Of a stretch of DNA of 23,779 nt, positions 2,784 to 16,811 are shown in pieces. The stretch spans positions 1-23,779 of IMG/VR virus record IMGVR_UViG_3300043465_000415, one strand, 5' to 3'. Source of the stretch: a virus. Both the position numbers and the translations under genes were made by a program. The notes under the pieces are model-generated. The model was not told the DNA's origin. It saw nothing but the letters and a program-made list of their open reading frames with translations, and did no database searches. Each line of letters begins with the position of its first letter. Within the stretch, counting starts at the first letter, position 1.

Positions 2784-2864
2784 CGTAAAACTCCCATCCG
2801 TGCATGGTTTGACCCCTTCGGGCCGGGTTTACAAAAATCCGTGCACGGTTTGGCTCTCTTAAAA

Positions 2865-2879
2865 ATGGCTGTTTTCTGC
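2865..2879 (+). repeat. 15-bp direct repeat, left copy
   Basis: ATGGCTGTTTTCTGC occurs here and again at 3041-3055 in the same orientation. The two copies occupy nearly mirror positions between the inverted arms, yet are not inverted, so they break the palindrome. Each copy could formally begin a short frame (MAVFC...), of 29 and 17 residues, but no good ribosome binding site is seen. Confidence 0.8.
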
Positions 2880-2911
2880 AATCCGTGCATGGTTGGGCCG
2901 GAAGTGCATGG

Positions 2912-3010
2912 TTTTTTCAAGAACGTCCTATACATTTTGGGTATTTACTAATTCGTATATACATATTATGCATATAAACACCCCGTGTATAAGGGCTCAT
3001 GGGTGGAAAA
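2912..3010. promoter_or_regulatory. AT-rich core of the inverted-repeat element
   Basis: The segment between the 23-bp arms is much richer in A+T than the flanking genes, with GTATATAC, ATGCAT and TATTATGCATATA runs near 2955-2976. It could be a DNA unwinding region or hold promoters. A weak pair TTTACT/TTATGC with about 16-base spacing can be drawn on the plus strand toward the HNH gene. The promoter reading is low confidence. Confidence 0.4.
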
Positions 3011-3040
3011 GGTCGGCACTTCCGGCCCAACCATGCACCG

Positions 3041-3055
3041 ATGGCTGTTTTCTGC
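3041..3055 (+). repeat. 15-bp direct repeat, right copy
   Basis: This is the exact second copy of the repeat at 2865-2879, lying between the right-hand 23-bp and 19-bp inverted arms. Its same-strand orientation inside an otherwise inverted structure suggests that it is a directional signal or was copied separately. Confidence 0.8.
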
Positions 3056-3129
3056 GGGTTTCCGCTCACGCCAAACCGTGCACGGATTATTTAAACCCGG
3101 CCCAACCCGGCCTGAAAGGATAAATACCT

Positions 3130-3630
3130 ATGGCAACCCTTGAATTGATAACCAAGACATTCAACTACGACCCAGACACCGGAGCACTGACCTACCGTGA
3201 GCCAAGAGGATCACTTCCCGCCGGACGCCCAGCGGGCACGGCCATAGCAACGGGCTACAACGTAAAGTTCAATGGCTCCTACACCTTGGCCCATCGGATC
3301 ATATGGAACATGATGACAGGCGAATGGCCACAGCACCCTATCCGCCATGTCAACGGTGACAAACTGGATAACCGCTGGAGCAATTTAGAGGTGCGGGTTC
3401 CGCTCCGTAACCGTGAGCCAATCACGCGCAAGCCTGTGCCCCGCAGCACCAACCAAGTTTCTGCGCATGGCGTAGGCCGTGTCGATTTCGATAAGATGGG
3501 TGTGACGCTGTTTGAGGCTAACGCTATCGTCAAGGGCGAACGCGTTTTTCTAGGCCGCTTTGAGACAAAAGCCAAAGCAGAGGCCGCGTTCAAGAACGCA
3601 ACAGGTTACGGCGCTCCGGGCAGCCTATAA
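3130..3630 (+). CDS. HNH endonuclease with AP2-like DNA-binding domain
   Basis: ATG 3130 has AAAGGA about ten bases upstream. Residues about 54-90 carry AHRIIWNMMTGEWP, IRHVNGDKLDN and RWSNLEV, the pattern of the HNH_3-type nuclease (His-Arg..Trp, a central His with Asn, then DN..NL). The C-terminal third, ending RVFLGRFETKAKAEAAFKNA, resembles an AP2-type domain (LGxFxTxxEAxxA). Such HNH plus AP2 proteins are typical free-standing homing endonucleases of phages: they nick or cut DNA at intron-less or allelic sites. It stands alone between the repeat element and a terminator. HNH proteins also assist packaging in some phages, so its place after the terminase-like gene is worth noting. Confidence 0.85.
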   Translation: MATLELITKTFNYDPDTGALTYREPRGSLPAGRPAGTAIATGYNVKFNGSYTLAHRIIWNMMTGEWPQHPIRHVNGDKLDNRWSNLEVRVPLRNREPITRKPVPRSTNQVSAHGVGRVDFDKMGVTLFEANAIVKGERVFLGRFETKAKAEAAFKNATGYGAPGSL

Positions 3631-3634
3631 AAAA

Positions 3635-3655
3635 GAGGGGGCGCTATGCCCCCTC
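3635..3655. terminator. bidirectional intrinsic terminator between convergent genes
   Basis: A perfect eight-base-pair stem GAGGGGGC/GCCCCCTC encloses a GCTAT loop. It is flanked by AAAAAA on the left, giving a U-run for the minus-strand transcript, and by CTTTTTG on the right for the plus-strand transcript. It separates the plus-strand HNH gene from the minus-strand gene 3644-3946, whose stop codon falls inside the hairpin. Confidence 0.9.
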
Positions 3656-3946
3656 AACTTTTTGTATCAGCCTATCGAGATACCACCTCGCTTTGCGAAG
3701 GTCCGCAACCGGATCGGCTTTCTTTTCATAACGCCAGAGATATTTGAGGACATTCGCTTTCAACGCGCCGCGAAAGCCTTCGTCGCTTAGCGCGGCCTCG
3801 ATGGCGTCAATCGCTTCAATCCCTCCCGCTGTATAGTGCGGTGGGCTATTGACCACATCTACCACATCGACCGCCTCGCCCCCTACCACATCGGCATTGA
3901 GCGCATCCCTAATCTCTTTGTATCTCATAAAATCATTCCCATACAT
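3644..3946 (-). CDS. DUF3310 (SaV-like) phage protein
   Basis: The C-terminal half shows the DUF3310 signature: SPPHYTAGGIEAIDAIEAAL at about residues 34-53, then VLKYLWRYEKKADPVADLRKARWYLDRLI. The N-terminus is a variable extension with a Val/Asp-rich piece. Members occur widely in phage replication regions, and a related T7 protein (gp1.7) acts as a nucleotide kinase, so a role in nucleotide metabolism is possible but not proven here. The ATG at 3946 overlaps the primase stop as TAATG; an alternative start is ATG 3928 with GGGA ahead. The stop lies in the terminator hairpin, so this is the last gene of its operon. Confidence 0.85.
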   Translation of the reverse strand: MYGNDFMRYKEIRDALNADVVGGEAVDVVDVVNSPPHYTAGGIEAIDAIEAALSDEGFRGALKANVLKYLWRYEKKADPVADLRKARWYLDRLIQKVEGA

Positions 3947-6423
3947 TAGCCATCATCCCTATCATCTGCTTTGAAGTTAATCTGAACGCCAAAGAAATCT
4001 TCGGACTGCTCGTCTATCATGGCGTTGATAACCATATAGTCTTCATCGCCTATGAGAAGTTCAAGGCCACGGAACACACGCTTCGTACGTGTCGCCCGAT
4101 CCCTTGCGGGTTCATAGCCATGCGTCGTCATCTCTCCGTTGAACTTACGCTGCGACCAGTCTTTCCCCTTGCCCTCGTTGTTATCCTTGCACCAGTCGCG
4201 GAAGTCATTGAACGCCTCGTTGGTGGTCATCTCATTGTCCGCCCCAGCCACGCAGCGTTCACTAATCCAGCGGGCCAATGCGTCCTCCCCTGCGAGATAC
4301 TCATCGGTAGCTTGGATTACTGCCTGCGGTGGGTTCAGACCCTGCTCCAGCCAAGCCTTCGCGCCTTCGATAACCCACGCCAAGATGGCTGGATACTCTT
4401 CCTTCAGCTTGTCCGGCAAGTCCATGTCCTTGCGGACTGGCTTGGTCTCGAACGGGATGAGGTGCATACGCCGACGCATAGCATCGTCCACGTTAGTAAT
4501 CTCTGGCTTCGTATTGCCCGCGATAATCAACGTAAACTGCGGATTGAACTCAAACAAATCCTGCCGCATGAAGCGCGCACTAATCTTATCCCCGCCAGTC
4601 AGCGCCTTGACCTTGGCTTCGTCCCACCTGCGTGACGGGTCAATCTCCTGCGCATGAACGAGCCTCGCGCCCATCAACGACGCCAACTCTGTGGGATGCC
4701 GCTGATTGTTCGACGCGAGGAACACGTCCGCACTGGCCACGGTGGCATAATCGCCAAGGATATTGCCTATCGCTCCGAGGAACGTCCCTTTGCCATTACC
4801 GCCGGACCCGTGGGCGAAGGCAAGCACATGCTCTTTGGTGCTACCCGTAGCCGAATAGCCAGCCAACCTTTGAAGATAAGAGATCATCTCCGCGTCACCG
4901 TTGCACGCCTCATTGAGGAACGCTTGCCATTGCGGGGCTGGCTTGCTGAAGTCCGCCTCGACCGATGTGCATTTTGTGCACATGCGAGAACGGTCGTGCG
5001 CAAACAAGACCCCCGTCTTCAGGTCCACCATGCCCGACCGGGTGTTGAGGATATAGATGTCTGCGTCTAGCTGCTCGGTGGTCGCCTGCATCGACGGCTC
5101 TACTGCCGCCAGCTTCGCCACGTTTGCGATCACATTATACGACGCCACACGCTGCGCGATACGCTCACCCTTTTGCGGGCTGTCTATCTTTTCCAAGGCC
5201 TCCGCTGACGCTTGGGCACAGACCTTGCGGACAATGGTAAGATGCTTCTTGGCCACGTCCACCGCCCACTTGTTGCCGTCCCATGCGACCCAGCCCATGC
5301 CGCCCACAACGTATCGTATATCCGAAACGTGTAGCCGAGCAACGCGCTGCGCCAACGCAATGTCACTATACTCAACCGGTGTCTCACCCGCCGAGGCCAC
5401 CACGCCAAAGTCTTCGTCGCTGAAGTCCGTCACATCGAACTCATCGACCTCGCGCTTGTAGCCAAAGGTCGCAGCCTTACCGGCCAGCCAGTCCCAGCCC
5501 AACTCATAGGGCGGGTGCATACGACCGAAGTCTGCTTCGATAGTATCGAGCGAGTTTACCCCGTCTTCCCAACGCTCGGCCCAGCCTGCGAATATCTCGA
5601 ACGCATCCGGCTCATTGTCCGGGCCACACGCTGCCTTGATGGCGTAGCCCATGCGAATATAGTCATCGCGGTCGGGGAAGTGTTCGGTCTTGTTCGGGAT
5701 AGCAGTCACCGCAGCAGCCACATGGACAACGCTTGGCGCAGTAAGCGAAGCCTGATCGACCGACTGCCGCTCGACTGCCTTCTGCGCCGTCTTATCCGCG
5801 TGGATAATTTGGCAGCCCATCATCTCCAGCGTCTCCGTTAGATCAGCAAAGAACTGCTCAATCTTTTCCCGCGTGACCTTCTTCAGCCCAGCCGGGCCGC
5901 GTGTCTCCAAGTCCACATCAAGACTGTATGGTTCCTTAGTGATAGGGTGAATACCGGCGATGACGTATTGCTGCCCGTCCCCTAGAAATTCTACAAGCTG
6001 CTCGACCCCGCGACCATCACGGAACCGCACCTGCATCCGGCCAATCTTTTCATCGGTGCGATACATGAACAGGCGCTTGGGGAAACGACCGATACGCATC
6101 GGGGCTTTGCCCAATGCCTTCACCGCCATATCACCAATGACACGAGCCAGCCCCTCGTTGACAACATCAATGTCAACCGCAGGATATTTGCTTGCCTTCA
6201 AGCCGATATTAGCATGGCTGCGGTCCCACCGCTCCACGTCATTAGGCGTCGGCACATAGTCCTGCCACGCGTAGCCGCCCCATGTGCCCTGCGCATTCTG
6301 CCGACCGGGTGCTTTGCCTGCCTGATCCGCTTGGATTTTAGACATGGCTGACAACTCAGCGTTCGGCGGGATAACGGACACGAGATCGGTGAACCCGATC
6401 TCATACAGTGTCTTAAACTTCAT
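3946..6423 (-). CDS. primase-helicase: prim-pol, PriCT and D5/SF3 helicase domains (825 aa)
   Basis: This is the central replication enzyme. Residues about 1-200 form a bifunctional primase-polymerase domain with a metal-binding VDIDV (Asp84, Asp86) and a later VEFLGDGQQYV strand. About 250-320 looks like a PriCT-type linker (DYIRMGYAIKAACG ... GWDWLAGKA). The C-terminal half is a D5-type superfamily 3 helicase: Walker A GSGGNGKGT at about 539-547 (Lys545), Walker B-like LVHAQEID, sensor AGNTKPEI, and an Arg-rich MRRRMHLIPF. It is expected to unwind the fork and make primers. The ATG shares one base with the upstream TGA (TGATG), and the downstream DUF3310 gene is also overlapped. The length is normal for the family and all key motifs are present. 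Confidence 0.92.
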   Translation of the reverse strand: MKFKTLYEIGFTDLVSVIPPNAELSAMSKIQADQAGKAPGRQNAQGTWGGYAWQDYVPTPNDVERWDRSHANIGLKASKYPAVDIDVVNEGLARVIGDMAVKALGKAPMRIGRFPKRLFMYRTDEKIGRMQVRFRDGRGVEQLVEFLGDGQQYVIAGIHPITKEPYSLDVDLETRGPAGLKKVTREKIEQFFADLTETLEMMGCQIIHADKTAQKAVERQSVDQASLTAPSVVHVAAAVTAIPNKTEHFPDRDDYIRMGYAIKAACGPDNEPDAFEIFAGWAERWEDGVNSLDTIEADFGRMHPPYELGWDWLAGKAATFGYKREVDEFDVTDFSDEDFGVVASAGETPVEYSDIALAQRVARLHVSDIRYVVGGMGWVAWDGNKWAVDVAKKHLTIVRKVCAQASAEALEKIDSPQKGERIAQRVASYNVIANVAKLAAVEPSMQATTEQLDADIYILNTRSGMVDLKTGVLFAHDRSRMCTKCTSVEADFSKPAPQWQAFLNEACNGDAEMISYLQRLAGYSATGSTKEHVLAFAHGSGGNGKGTFLGAIGNILGDYATVASADVFLASNNQRHPTELASLMGARLVHAQEIDPSRRWDEAKVKALTGGDKISARFMRQDLFEFNPQFTLIIAGNTKPEITNVDDAMRRRMHLIPFETKPVRKDMDLPDKLKEEYPAILAWVIEGAKAWLEQGLNPPQAVIQATDEYLAGEDALARWISERCVAGADNEMTTNEAFNDFRDWCKDNNEGKGKDWSQRKFNGEMTTHGYEPARDRATRTKRVFRGLELLIGDEDYMVINAMIDEQSEDFFGVQINFKADDRDDG

Positions 6424-8249: not shown

Positions 8250-10157
8250 ATGGTAGTGAGCATCGACTTTGAGACGCGTAGCGCCGTCGATCTTCGCAAG
8301 ACAGGCGTCTATAAGTACGCCGCTGACCAATCGACTGACATCTGGTGCATGGCATACAAGGCCCCGTGGTCTGACGACGTGCTAGTATGGCAGCCGGGCG
8401 ATGCGGTAGATACCCACCTTGAAGATTGGATTATGGCAGGCGGATTGCTGTCTGCATGGAACGCCAACTTTGAACGCGTAATCTGGAACGAGATCATGGT
8501 TGCCCGCTACCAATGGCCAGCCACCAAGATTAAACAATGGCGCTGCACGATGGCGCAGGCCAGCGCGATGGGACTACCTCGTGCGCTAGGTCAAGCCGCT
8601 GCTGTCCTCGGTGTCGAAGAACAGAAAGATAAGACCGGCGCGGCCCTTATGCTCCGGATGGCACGGCCACGTAAGGTGAACGCCGACGGCAGCTACACTT
8701 GGTGGAACACGAAGGATAAGATTGAACAGCTTGTCGCTTATTGCCGACAGGACGTGCGGACGGAACTGTCGGTAGCTGAAACGCTGAACGCAATGCCTGA
8801 CAGTGAGCGCCGTCTCTATCAACTCGACCAACGCATCAACGACCGTGGCGTTAAAGTTGACATCGACCTCATCGAACGGGTTAGCAAACTTGCTAATGAT
8901 GCGTCGGAAAACATTGACGCAGAGATGAAGCGCCTTACGAACGGTCAAGTCAAAGCAGCGACGAACGCAATGGACTTAACTGCGTGGCTTCGTGGCTATG
9001 AGTTAAACGTCAACTCCGTGGACAAGCAGACCGTGACGCGGATGCTTGCTATGGACGGGCTGCACCCCATCATCAAGCAAGTGCTGAAGCTACGCCAAGA
9101 CGGCGCGAAGTCTAGCACCGCTAAGTATGACGCGATGGTCAACGCAGCCAACGCTGACGACCGTATGCGCGGCCTTCTCATGTATCACGGCGCGGCAACG
9201 GGCCGGTGGTCTGGCCGTTTGGTGCAGCCGCAGAACTTCCCACGTCCGCAAAAGAAACAAGACGAGTTGGACGAGATCATTGCCAAACTCAAAGCGGATA
9301 AGGATGTGTCGGAGCATGGGGCCGGAACGGTTCTGGCGTCCGACCTGTTGCGTTCGATGCTGATAGCCGACGACGGCCATCGACTAATGTTTGCCGACTA
9401 CTCGGCAATCGAGGCCCGCGTGTTGGCGTGGGTAGCAGGGCAGAGCGATCTCGTTGAGACGTTCCGGAAAGGGGGAGACGTGTATAAAGAAATGGCATCA
9501 GCCATCTACAACGTGGACGTGGAGAGCGTCACTGACGGACAACGGCAGGTTGGTAAGATGGCAATCTTGGGTTGCGGCTACGGCATGGGGGGCAAACGCT
9601 TCGCCGAGCAGTGCGCCACGATGGGTATCAAGGTGGATGAAGACGAAGCTAAGCGCATCGTGGCTGTCTACCGTGAAAAGAACAACAGGATCGCGCAGTA
9701 CTGGCGAGATGTTGAGCAAGATTTTGTAGAGATGGTGAAGGGGGCAGGCAGGTTAAGGACCGTCGGGCTTCCATTACCTAGCGGGCGGTCGCTTACGTAC
9801 CACAATCCGCGCATCATTCAGCGTGAAACCCCTTGGGGTGCGATGAGAGATACAGCGCAAGTCGATACGTTGAATAGCGTGACGCGTCAGTGGACATCCC
9901 AGATAATCTGGGGTGGCTTGCTGACGGAGAACGTGGTGCAAGCGACCGCCCGTGACATGATGGCCACCGCCATGATGGCGTTAGAGATTAAAGGTTACCC
10001 AGTAATCCTGTCCGTACACGATGAAATCATTAGCGAAGTGCCAGATGGTTTTGGTTCGCTTGACGAAATGATTGACATCATGACACAAGTTCCTGCATGG
10101 GCGCAAGGCTGCCCGATCAACGCCGAGGGCAAAGAAGGAAAGAGGTATCGGAAATGA
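8250..10157 (+). CDS. family A DNA polymerase with 3'-5' exonuclease (635 aa)
   Basis: This is the phage replicative polymerase. Exonuclease motifs: DFET at residues 6-9, NANFER near 71-76, YCRQDVRTE near 163-171. Polymerase motif A FADYSAIEARV has its catalytic Asp at 383. Motif B RQVGKMAILGCGYG runs from 432 to 445 with Lys436 and Tyr444. Motif C VHDE has His590, Asp591 and Glu592. The 5' nuclease domain of bacterial Pol I is absent, as is usual in phages. Tyr444, at the site where Phe or Tyr affects dideoxynucleotide discrimination, is Tyr as in T7. AGAGGGAAAG precedes the ATG. The stop overlaps the DUF2800 gene (ATGA). It acts with the primase-helicase and SSB encoded nearby. Confidence 0.95.
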   Translation: MVVSIDFETRSAVDLRKTGVYKYAADQSTDIWCMAYKAPWSDDVLVWQPGDAVDTHLEDWIMAGGLLSAWNANFERVIWNEIMVARYQWPATKIKQWRCTMAQASAMGLPRALGQAAAVLGVEEQKDKTGAALMLRMARPRKVNADGSYTWWNTKDKIEQLVAYCRQDVRTELSVAETLNAMPDSERRLYQLDQRINDRGVKVDIDLIERVSKLANDASENIDAEMKRLTNGQVKAATNAMDLTAWLRGYELNVNSVDKQTVTRMLAMDGLHPIIKQVLKLRQDGAKSSTAKYDAMVNAANADDRMRGLLMYHGAATGRWSGRLVQPQNFPRPQKKQDELDEIIAKLKADKDVSEHGAGTVLASDLLRSMLIADDGHRLMFADYSAIEARVLAWVAGQSDLVETFRKGGDVYKEMASAIYNVDVESVTDGQRQVGKMAILGCGYGMGGKRFAEQCATMGIKVDEDEAKRIVAVYREKNNRIAQYWRDVEQDFVEMVKGAGRLRTVGLPLPSGRSLTYHNPRIIQRETPWGAMRDTAQVDTLNSVTRQWTSQIIWGGLLTENVVQATARDMMATAMMALEIKGYPVILSVHDEIISEVPDGFGSLDEMIDIMTQVPAWAQGCPINAEGKEGKRYRK

Positions 10158-13692: not shown

Positions 13693-13824
13693 TCAGAAGC
13701 TAGTTCGCAAGTGACTGCGTGGCCCCAAAGACTTACGATGGCGAAGCCCGTCGGGTTTGTGGCGACGCTTTGCTTTTGGCTGTGGTCGCCATGACATGTC
13801 TTTAACACCACTCTTCTTGGCCAT
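13693..13824 (-). CDS. 43-residue very basic protein
   Basis: The ATG at 13824-13822 overlaps the stop of the large virion protein as TAATG and has AAAGG six bases ahead. The product is unusually rich in Lys, Arg and His (WRPQPKAKRRHKPDGLRHRK) and ends in SHLRTSF, with no hydrophobic core. It probably binds nucleic acid, or is a small virion component; both are inference. The ribosome binding site and coupling support a real gene. It is followed by the resolvase gene 17 bases downstream. Confidence 0.6.
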   Translation of the reverse strand: MAKKSGVKDMSWRPQPKAKRRHKPDGLRHRKSLGPRSHLRTSF

Positions 13825-16811
13825 TACTTGCCTTTCGTATATACCTTATAGTCGCCGGGATCGGTGAACTGAGTACCGACAGGAAGCGCGTCATATTGTT
13901 CTTGGCTCTTGATGAGAGGAGCCTTGCTCAACTGACGCAGCAATGTGTCGGCTGTCATGCCGGTGCTGCTTTCGACTTGGCGGTTGAGCATGATCTTCTC
14001 TTCACGGTTCATGCCCTTAAACTTCTTTAGCAAAGAAAGTTCTGGGTTCTCCGCGTTGAACTTAGCGTTGGCGGCTTCACGCGCCTTGCTGTAAATCTCT
14101 TTGATTGCTGCGGACTTACCGACATTATCCAAGTTCTGATACTCAGGAGACTGCAACAACGGTGCGATCCCGCGCTCGGCAATGATGCCGAGGTCGCGGT
14201 TAACAAGGCGGTCGATAGCAACTTCGCCGGTCTTTGACCCCACATCGTAGGCCGTAAGGCCAAGTTTATCCAATTCGCTTTCGACAATGTTCTTGGCCGG
14301 ACGGATCGTGGCCCCAAGAAGCTGACGCAACGCGGGGTTATCAGTGGTCAATGGCCCTTCACGCGTGGCCGACACCGCTGCCGGAACGCCCATTGCCTGC
14401 TGCGCTCCGGGTATTGGACGCACAAGAGCGGCAAGTGGGTTGTCCTTGGTGTCACGGTAGACCGCTTCTTCGGGATCATACTGGGCGTAGAAATCTTTGA
14501 ACGTGCTGAATGGTTGAAGGAAGCCCGCGCCTACATCGGCCAGCCAGCTTGTCGCAATCGTCTTGGCTTTGTCGAGGTTTCCGGCAGCACCAGACAAATC
14601 CTTGAGAAGCTGGTCCGTTACATAGAGGCCCGTGCCTGCACGAAACTGCGCGCCGGATAGACCTTGGAGAATATCCTTTGTCTCAAACGCTTGGTCTAGG
14701 GTATTATCCTGCGCTCGTTTAATAAGATCAGCAACCAAAAGATACGGAGCCGCCGGGAAGTACGGGCGAAGATCGACTGTCCGGCCATCCTCAAGTTTCC
14801 CTTCGTACCATTTCTCCCCAGCGTTTTCGCTGTTGCGGAATTGGTACGCACCGTACAGCATGGACGAGCCGACAATGGCTTTAGACACAGCCGACACATC
14901 GCCCTTAGCAAACTTGGCGCGTTCCGCTTCGGTCAACAGCTTAGTGAAACCCGCAGGGCTGTAGTCAAACTGGAACTTTAAGGCGTTCATCATGAAGCGC
15001 GGAAACGGCATGATCGTTGTACCGACAACGCGGGCAACGGTCCCAACCTTGCCCATTTTGTCCAGCATATCCCCAAACTTATCGGCAACTTCAGATTTGC
15101 CGGAGTAAGTAAAGCCGAGGGTATCATCAAGCGCCGTAGCCCACGCTTCTTCGGGAAGATTTGCTAAGCCACCTGTGTCAACAAGTTCATCGAAGTCTAA
15201 ATTAAGCCGTGTCGCTTCTCGGCGTAGATAGACCGGGAACATTGCTTTGCGCGTTGCTGTTTCTGATACGCGGTTAAAAAGGTTTGCAACGTCAACAGCC
15301 TTCTCAACTTTTGCAAACGCATCTTTCCTGACTACACGCGACACATCCGCCGCATAGGTAGCCGCCAATTCTTTTTGTATTTCTGGCTGCACATTCTTCA
15401 TCTGCTCCCAGAACTTAGTGTTCCGACCGGGAGCAAAACGATCCGTAATAACAGCCGCTGCATCAAAGGGGTTAACGCCGACTTTCTCTTGGCGGAAAGG
15501 ATTAGCCGCAGCGTTGACCGCGCTATCCATAAGGTTCGTCGCCGCGTCGATAGGCACGCGAACGCCAGACGAAATGACGTTGCGCATTGTTGTGGCAACG
15601 CTTGATACGAGCGCACCGCGATAGGTGTTGGATAGTCGTTTCCAAAAGTCCATACCGTCCGCTTCTTGAAGGCCAAGTTTAGCAATGTCGGCTGCTTCTT
15701 TAGGAACGTACCGGCTGGCGATACTGAAACGCTGCATAACACGGGCCGCATCGCCCAGACCTTGGCGTGATCCAGTGATAAGTTCGAACAGGTCTTCGTC
15801 TTTAAGGTCGTACTTTGTAACGAGTTTAGACACCTCTTCTTCGGGAAGAGTGCCTGCCTTGAAGTGGCGATAGAAAAACTCAGAGAACGGCATATCGGCT
15901 GGGCGTTGCAGCCCTGCGAGATTGCTATAGTCTGCGGCGAAGTTAGCAACCTTACCGCCAATTTCAGCGGTAGGCACAGGCTGCGTCTGGCCCTTCACTT
16001 CCATAGCCGCGATAGCGGGTTTGCCTGTTTCCGGTGTAGACGCTGGCAGATCATATGCTGCATTACGCGGTGCTACCGCAGCTTCAGGGATTGCTGCTGT
16101 GGCCACGGGGGCTTCCGGCAACTCAACCGCCTTCGCCTTTGGCAGCGTCTCCGGTATAACAGGGGCTGGAGTAACGGTCTTAGCAACTGCGGCCATCTCC
16201 GGAGAGAGCGCAGTTTCCGGAACCGCTGCCGCAACTTCATCCGCAACTGCGGCTGGGCCAGTAGCAAAACGGCCGATAGCCGCGCTAGTCTCCGGTGCAA
16301 CACGACGGAGACCCGCCGCTACTGGCCTACCCGCAAATGGCAGAACGGTAAGCCCAGTGTTTAAATAATCTATACCTGTCCCACGACCTGTTAAGACATC
16401 GCCGATACTGGTTTCGATTGCGTTAAGGCCGAGTAGGCTTTCGATATTTTGAACTACGTCTTGGCCGTACTGTACCGCACCACGTTCATCAAAGCCGGGA
16501 AGCAAACCCGCTACATTCGCAACGCCAGAAGCAAGGGCGTCATAGACACCTCCCGTAATTGTAGTCGGGGTAACTGCGGTTAGTTCTGGTTGCCGATTAG
16601 CGGTAACAACACTCTCGCCTTCTGCTGGCGTTCGTGCGACAACAGGAGCCGCAAGCAGTGGACCTTTGTAGTTCTTTGCAATCCAAGCATCAGCCGCAGC
16701 TTTAAGTTCATCGTTGCTGTTAAGCGACGTTACACCGGGAAGCGTGATCGTCTCCCCAGTGGCCGGAATTTTCAGGAATACTGGTTCGCCTTTTGGCTTC
16801 ACTTCAGCCAT
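13824..16811 (-). CDS. large putative internal virion (ejection) protein (995 aa)
   Basis: The ATG has AGGA seven bases upstream. No enzyme motif is visible. The N-terminus looks like a small folded unit (EPVFLKIPATGETITLPG). Residues about 180-270 are Ala/Pro/Val-rich and low complexity, like a linker. The rest is long and mainly helical, with a hydrophobic stretch VGTVARVVGTTIMPFPRFMM near the middle. Size, composition and position after two smaller Ala/Gln-rich genes match the largest internal core protein of podoviruses (T7 gp16-like position), which leaves the capsid with the DNA. There is no transglycosylase motif that I can see. The function is inferred from context. Confidence 0.65.
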   Translation of the reverse strand: MAEVKPKGEPVFLKIPATGETITLPGVTSLNSNDELKAAADAWIAKNYKGPLLAAPVVARTPAEGESVVTANRQPELTAVTPTTITGGVYDALASGVANVAGLLPGFDERGAVQYGQDVVQNIESLLGLNAIETSIGDVLTGRGTGIDYLNTGLTVLPFAGRPVAAGLRRVAPETSAAIGRFATGPAAVADEVAAAVPETALSPEMAAVAKTVTPAPVIPETLPKAKAVELPEAPVATAAIPEAAVAPRNAAYDLPASTPETGKPAIAAMEVKGQTQPVPTAEIGGKVANFAADYSNLAGLQRPADMPFSEFFYRHFKAGTLPEEEVSKLVTKYDLKDEDLFELITGSRQGLGDAARVMQRFSIASRYVPKEAADIAKLGLQEADGMDFWKRLSNTYRGALVSSVATTMRNVISSGVRVPIDAATNLMDSAVNAAANPFRQEKVGVNPFDAAAVITDRFAPGRNTKFWEQMKNVQPEIQKELAATYAADVSRVVRKDAFAKVEKAVDVANLFNRVSETATRKAMFPVYLRREATRLNLDFDELVDTGGLANLPEEAWATALDDTLGFTYSGKSEVADKFGDMLDKMGKVGTVARVVGTTIMPFPRFMMNALKFQFDYSPAGFTKLLTEAERAKFAKGDVSAVSKAIVGSSMLYGAYQFRNSENAGEKWYEGKLEDGRTVDLRPYFPAAPYLLVADLIKRAQDNTLDQAFETKDILQGLSGAQFRAGTGLYVTDQLLKDLSGAAGNLDKAKTIATSWLADVGAGFLQPFSTFKDFYAQYDPEEAVYRDTKDNPLAALVRPIPGAQQAMGVPAAVSATREGPLTTDNPALRQLLGATIRPAKNIVESELDKLGLTAYDVGSKTGEVAIDRLVNRDLGIIAERGIAPLLQSPEYQNLDNVGKSAAIKEIYSKAREAANAKFNAENPELSLLKKFKGMNREEKIMLNRQVESSTGMTADTLLRQLSKAPLIKSQEQYDALPVGTQFTDPGDYKVYTKGK

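Follow-up and report, generated by a model that had tools for sequence, protein, structure and literature searches.

A non-coding gap of 346 bp (positions 2784-3129) separates a terminase small subunit-like (TerS-like) open reading frame from an HNH open reading frame in the window analyzed here, a linear virus record of 23,779 nt (23.8 kb) from IMG/VR that carries structural, lysis and replication genes. A large inverted-repeat element lies wholly within this gap. What does this element do for the phage, and which protein reads it? The earlier note viewed it as a binding array that could be a replication origin, a pac/cos site or a super-operator, and it suggested the TerS-like, XRE and multi-HTH proteins as binders. 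We conclude that the element is very probably the phage's origin of replication, with iterons bound by the C-terminus of a primase-helicase.

Architecture of the element and its surroundings

The arms of the element contain three perfect inverted pairs, of 12 bp (2820-2831/3092-3103; coordinate sum 5923), 19 bp (2836-2854/3070-3088; coordinate sum 5924) and 23 bp (2885-2907/3016-3038; coordinate sum 5923). Their common axis is at 2961.5-2962, and the claim of a single axis near 2962 for these pairs is therefore exact. On the best axis, perfect arms of at least 8 bp total 54; when the element is shuffled 300 times with its dinucleotides preserved, the mean is 4.5 and the highest value 12. The element had also been described as built around CCGTGCAYGG boxes, and this description holds: the whole window has six strand-matches to this motif, at four places (2798, 2839, 2883 and 3076), all of them inside the element. 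Only 0.18 matches are expected, and six or more occurred in none of 100 shuffles.

Partial boxes at 2902 and 3031 fill out the set. The left boxes are on the plus strand and comprise box 1 (CCGTGCATGG, 2798-2807), box 2 (CCGTGCACGG, 2839-2848, within the 19-bp arm), box 3 (CCGTGCATGG, 2883-2892, which opens the 23-bp arm) and the partial box 4 (aaGTGCATGG, 2902-2911). The right set is inverted; on the minus strand it has the partial box 5 (CGGTGCATGG, 3031-3040) and box 6 (CCGTGCACGG, 3076-3085, within the 19-bp arm). The outer 12-bp arm on the left (GGGCCGGGTTTA, 2820-2831, plus strand) includes a box variant (GGGCCGGGTT), and its mirror copy (TAAACCCGGCCC) occupies 3092-3103 on the minus strand. 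Neighboring boxes are 41, 44 and 45 bases apart, with one further spacing of 19. The spacing of 41-45 bases that had been claimed is thus present in the window, but it varies in relatives.

The AT-rich center (2919-2978, 75% AT) is the AT-richest 60-mer in the whole window and is the proposed site of melting. The window strand of the element folds far better than shuffled sequences (z -8.9), and the element has no match in Rfam. Cumulative GC skew has its maximum near the element; because gene orientation flips at this point, the skew is uninformative regarding an origin. A small hairpin-like spacer (ATGGCTGTTTTCTGC, 2865-2879, plus strand) has a second copy at 3041-3055. These copies are direct, not inverted, on the two sides of an otherwise mirror-symmetric element.

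The TerS-like gene (Sf6 type) occupies 2268-2783 on the plus strand, and the HNH endonuclease gene 3130-3630 on the same strand. On the minus strand are a small nucleotide-kinase/MazG-like open reading frame (3644-3946) and the gene for a P4/D5-family primase-helicase of 825 amino acids (3946-6423), the proposed initiator. A phage PolA-type polymerase is encoded at 8250-10157, and XRE and HTH genes are close to the element. In the structural-gene region, an open reading frame of 995 amino acids (13824-16811) has no PHROG or Pfam match; its product is perhaps an ejected internal protein.

Relatives keep the layout and replace the boxes

A query with the TerS protein yielded 80 loci from viral contigs. 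The primase of the locus L058, used as query in turn, added 38 contigs that served as a fresh test. The combined set has 102 distinct loci. An element of the same design is found in the post-TerS gap of nearly all relatives whose contigs reach far enough. The total span (about 275 bp for the array), the opposed orientation of the two sets and the AT-rich gap of about 100 bp are conserved, and the center is AT-richer than its own element in 82 of 82 relatives. A blind box search of viral contigs also found the element conserved beside this gene family, at 25 of 25 loci among the matches listed. Further, the class-A box (defined below) is confined to one array or absent in seven near-complete contigs of 36-39 kb.

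Class A is defined by GTGCAYGG boxes (sometimes GTGCCGGG, the form that predominates in L058 and L064) and class B by GGGAC boxes. The latter are not palindromic, so their orientation is plain to read: 174 forward and 0 reverse in the left set, and 181 reverse and 15 forward in the right set. A change of class hits essentially every box copy in both arms. A search of related phages for the box and its geometry had been proposed as a check; across the 102 loci, the layout and symmetry are kept, but the box itself is replaced wholesale in some. A third box, CGGACGC, is present in L163 (6750-7020) and L164 (3742-4014), together with S762 and R774 in the primase and with the layout unchanged.

These replacements occur among close relatives. 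TerS, XRE and the primase are up to 97-98% identical across box classes; the TerS proteins of the window and L010 are 98% identical, though every box differs. Both classes are found within a single metagenome in several instances, among them 3300044675 (L012 in class A; L023, L068 and L070 in class B) and 3300049827 (L019 and L027 in class A; L024 in class B). The element does not depend on the HNH gene, which many relatives lack at this place. Since each class occurs both with and without HNH, the classes are not two inherited backbones. The genes on either side of the element converge on it in HNH-less relatives such as L049, and it is thus not needed as a promoter region.

The box columns of the two arms pair in 79% of cells among the relatives and the non-box columns in 49%, with 25% expected at random. 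The non-box value is well above random, indicating some dyad symmetry beyond the boxes. The blind search, made with CCGTGCACGGTTTG, was also a search for free-standing decoy arrays; among the matches listed, arrays of at least five boxes occur only in this family.

Several loci have peculiarities. L162 looks collapsed, with no more than two full boxes. In L026, L042, L077 and L079, small AP2-type DNA-binding-protein-like genes are inserted just right of the element; the inserts bring extra GGGGACA copies in L042, L077 and L079 and extra GTGGACACTT repeats in L026. In L082, L035, L039 and L031, a terminase large-subunit match is about 3-4 kb away from the element, and TerS is encoded on the other strand; this split of the large and small subunits is unusual. 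In more distant relatives (L218-L221, L259, L278 and L280), short GGTTTGC tandem arrays, possibly iterons of another type, lie 1-2 kb beyond the primase. Two loci from bacterial MAGs, L215 and L216, did not reveal the host.

The protein that follows the boxes

The proposed initiator is a P4-family primase/D5-type SF3 helicase. It scores 304 bits against TIGR01613 (cut-off 108.7) and matches PF08706 (D5_N) and PF19263 in Pfam. Foldseek matches of its model include AsfvPrimPol, vaccinia D5 and SaPI5 Rep, and the last (structure 7ola) is also its best sequence match in the PDB. An AlphaFold model of residues 344-825 from a 39-sequence alignment (pLDDT 82.7) superseded a poor one of the C-terminus alone without an alignment (pLDDT 43). 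It has a D5-type helicase followed by a winged helix in the order helix-helix-hairpin (regional pLDDT about 73-87), with a helix at 734-747, the recognition helix at 758-767 and strands at 772-774 and 782-789. The roles of recognition helix and wing are those that we presume from general knowledge of winged helices.

In a scan confined to the neighborhood of the element, which stops short of the structural genes and of much of the distant genome, we compared every residue of 14 proteins to box class. Whole-protein comparison finds the neighbors alike across the classes, and the signal is seen at the level of residues only. The strongest well-sampled columns are all in the primase: residue 774 (0.84 bits), then 763, 762, 733, 772 and 735. 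The remaining primase columns reach at most about 0.28-0.31 bit. Residue 627, in the helicase domain, covaries weakly with box class at 0.28-0.31 bit, the highest value outside the winged helix. Among the other proteins, the hypervariable g6650 reaches 0.50 bit and the HTH protein 0.36, mostly on 15-17 rows of a hypervariable alignment. The MazG-like protein, encoded between initiator and element, has no column above 0.22 bit; the respective limits are 0.11 for TerS and 0.08 for XRE.

Covariation and AlphaFold secondary structure place the winged helix at residues 730-790 (4054-4236, minus strand). The candidate specificity positions are 733 and 735, at the start of the helix that precedes the recognition helix; 762 and 763, in the recognition helix; and 772 and 774, in the first wing strand (codon 762 is at 4138-4140 and codon 774 at 4102-4104, minus strand). 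Because these few residues of a DNA-gripping tip change with each box swap, the primase-helicase is indicated as the reader of the boxes. The covariation thus points to its C-terminus, on the other strand, in place of the three binders suggested earlier, none of which covaries comparably. It also supports the more general idea of a protein-binding array.

The initial set had R774 in 46 of 46 class-A loci and K774 in 17 of 17 class-B loci. In the set of 102, R774 accompanies GTGC boxes in 59 of 60 cases and K774 accompanies GGGAC boxes in 29 of 29. Thus, 88 of the 89 classed R/K loci are concordant; 12 other R/K loci are unclassed, mostly because their contigs end too early. The rule holds too in a clade in which the primase is about 73% identical. 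The lone exception, L152, combines R774 with GGGAC boxes. Its primase C-terminus is like that of L149 and it has an inserted small AP2-like gene; it may have recombined recently or be a chimera of the assembly. As judged by eye, no residue covariation is evident between the GTGCAY and GTGCCG sub-classes.

Could common descent or linkage account for this pattern? We built a maximum-likelihood tree from residues 301-700 of the primase, a segment that excludes the specificity region. Box class and residue 774 each undergo 18 changes on this tree, and supported branches force at least 11 of those in box class. Comparison of independent pairs, again on supported branches, gave eight concordant cases, no discordant case and one case without difference (p=0.008). 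The repeated changes of both box and residue 774, together with the eight-to-zero result of the pairs, demonstrate that the covariation is not mere inheritance. Silent changes in codons for constant residues carry at most 0.15 bit relative to box class, except at codons 734 and 736, and the synonymous codons around 762-774 do not track box class. As the silent changes do not follow the boxes, linkage to the nearby element does not explain the covariation. Codons 734 and 736 flank 733 and 735, however, and their silent signal makes some tract exchange around 733-736 possible.

Alternative explanations

Two of the functions first considered for the element call for a different reader. Pac sites are often in or near terS, and the element begins just after the TerS-like gene; the boxes might therefore bind the adjacent TerS-like protein and start DNA packaging. 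This is very unlikely, given that TerS does not covary with box class and is nearly the same protein in the window and L010, where all of the boxes are different. In addition, the large-subunit match is kilobases away on the opposite strand in four relatives. The near-complete contigs end at scattered distances from the element, and it is therefore not a fixed genome end (cos). Multi-site operators with concerted class differences exist, for example the stoperators of cluster A mycobacteriophages, and XRE and HTH genes are nearby. We nonetheless consider it very improbable that the XRE or multi-HTH regulator binds the element as an immunity array or super-operator: the columns of XRE are near zero, the 0.36 bit of the HTH protein is on 15 rows, and the convergent flanks in HNH-less relatives mean that no adjacent start needs the element.

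The remaining alternatives concern the nature of the repeat. In pRN1 and phage BIP-1, a primase/SF3 helicase/winged-helix gene is followed on its 3' side by a large stem-loop (PMC4234260), and the element might likewise be an origin that acts as one large stem-loop rather than through iterons. The strong folding of the window strand is in keeping with this notion. Stem pairing does not, however, require boxes of the same arm to change together, as they do; the box columns pair far more often than the non-box columns, and box class covaries with winged-helix residues. We thus find a stem-loop mode of action highly improbable. A mobile repeat or MITE-like insertion without a role for the phage would have an inverted-repeat form, and an HNH gene is adjacent. 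But the element is single-copy, not dispersed, and found at the same position with a conserved span throughout the family, and an insertion of this kind would predict no covariation with an initiator. We give this reading practically no credence. An iteron-based replication origin remains the preferred reading, supported by the layout, the box switches, the covariation with the initiator and the precedents discussed below.

A model for replication and the switching of its specificity

The array is always on the 3' side of the P4/D5-family primase-helicase gene. It is not directly 3' of it: the MazG-like open reading frame, and in the window also the HNH gene, intervene. The matching of initiator and iterons that is expected of origin specificity is seen as the covariation in 88 of 89 loci, and the putative binding of the boxes by the primase-helicase rests on this pattern. 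We propose that the winged helix would bind the boxes as iterons and that the two opposed sets would load two helicase hexamers, one on each side of the AT-rich center. The center would then melt, the SF3/D5 motor would unwind the DNA, and the primase part would start synthesis in both directions; the PolA-type polymerase would probably extend the primed strands. The steps after binding are modeled on the biology of related systems. Box class would set the specificity of replication, and sister phages could thus own origins that are mutually non-recognized.

On balance, we lean toward the view that this freshwater phage family has exchangeable origin-specificity alleles, in which the whole array switches together, many times, with a handful of residues in the winged helix (chiefly 774, and also 762, 763 and 733). 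The switches are found between phages that are otherwise 97-98% identical, even among contigs of one metagenome. Competition with co-infecting sister phages, satellites or decoy origins with the same boxes could drive the switching. Ectopic origin copies are reported to have been tried as a block to phage lambda (PMC4488673), and the origin of Streptococcus phage Sfi21 is also labeled a phage inhibitory sequence in its record; escape from decoys or competitors is thus a reasonable conjecture.

How specificity can change jointly has long been puzzling, since none of the boxes can lag behind the initiator. The family amounts to a natural experiment in which specificity shifts in an initiator and, along with it, in a dozen binding-site copies. 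If this reading is true, it provides a natural recognition code for D5/P4-type initiators. Further, a phage family that is common and uncultured has been given a probable replication origin, with its reader, on the basis of sequence alone.

Comparison with known origins

The earlier note knew of no named element with this layout, but the origins of SaPIs and other PICIs (PMC6092414, PMC7581432) and the annotated origin of Sfi21 match it. Sfi21 is a full phage, and its record (NC_000872.1, 34487-34784) has an annotated origin of 302 bp that is non-coding and directly 3' of the gene for a P4-family primase (TIGR01613); the sequence itself contains inverted GTTAC/GTAAC boxes around a center of up to 94% AT. 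Both phages thus have a non-coding repeat element of about 300 bp 3' of a P4-family primase, although that of the window is not directly adjacent and its boxes are unrelated in sequence. In Acidithiobacillus phage AcaML1, the gap that follows the primase contains inverted arrays of TGACGG.

Satellite phage P4 uses ori plus crr, whereas the family of the window has one array per genome. P4 alpha, with a Toprim primase, binds its origin repeats via a winged helix (as summarized in PMC4234260); the window resembles this system in having a primase-helicase, origin repeats and a winged helix, for which box binding is predicted here. The window resembles pRN1 and BIP-1 (PMC4234260) in that an inverted repeat lies on the 3' side of the gene for a protein with primase, SF3 helicase and winged-helix parts. 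Their element is defined as a stem-loop without iterons, whereas oriented iteron sets switch together in the window family.

An AT-rich region between two sets of iterons is a constant feature of PICI origins (PMC6092414), and SaPI Rep, apparently in the form of two hexamers, uses its C-terminal domain to read the downstream iterons (PMC7581432). The element shares with them the two opposed iteron sets, the AT-rich region between and a location beyond the 3' end of the gene for a self-loading primase-helicase (Rep or Pri-Rep in SaPIs and PICIs); reading of the iterons by the C-terminal domain is proposed for the window primase as well. Their origins are immediately 3' of the initiator and are carried by satellites; here, the MazG-like open reading frame and HNH intervene, and the phage has its own structural and lysis genes. 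We do not file the element as a PICI origin, since immediate adjacency to the initiator and a satellite carrier are characteristics that it does not share. As an origin, it adds one example to a kind already known. In 2018, this layout was described as common to PICIs and to no other known bacterial replicon (PMC6092414); the element suggests that a PICI-type origin layout serves ordinary phages too. Here, in distinction to SaPIs and PICIs, the box classes switch among near-identical phages, along with candidate residues for reading them; that all boxes have repeatedly switched in nature, together with a small number of residues of the initiator, is, as far as we have found, new.
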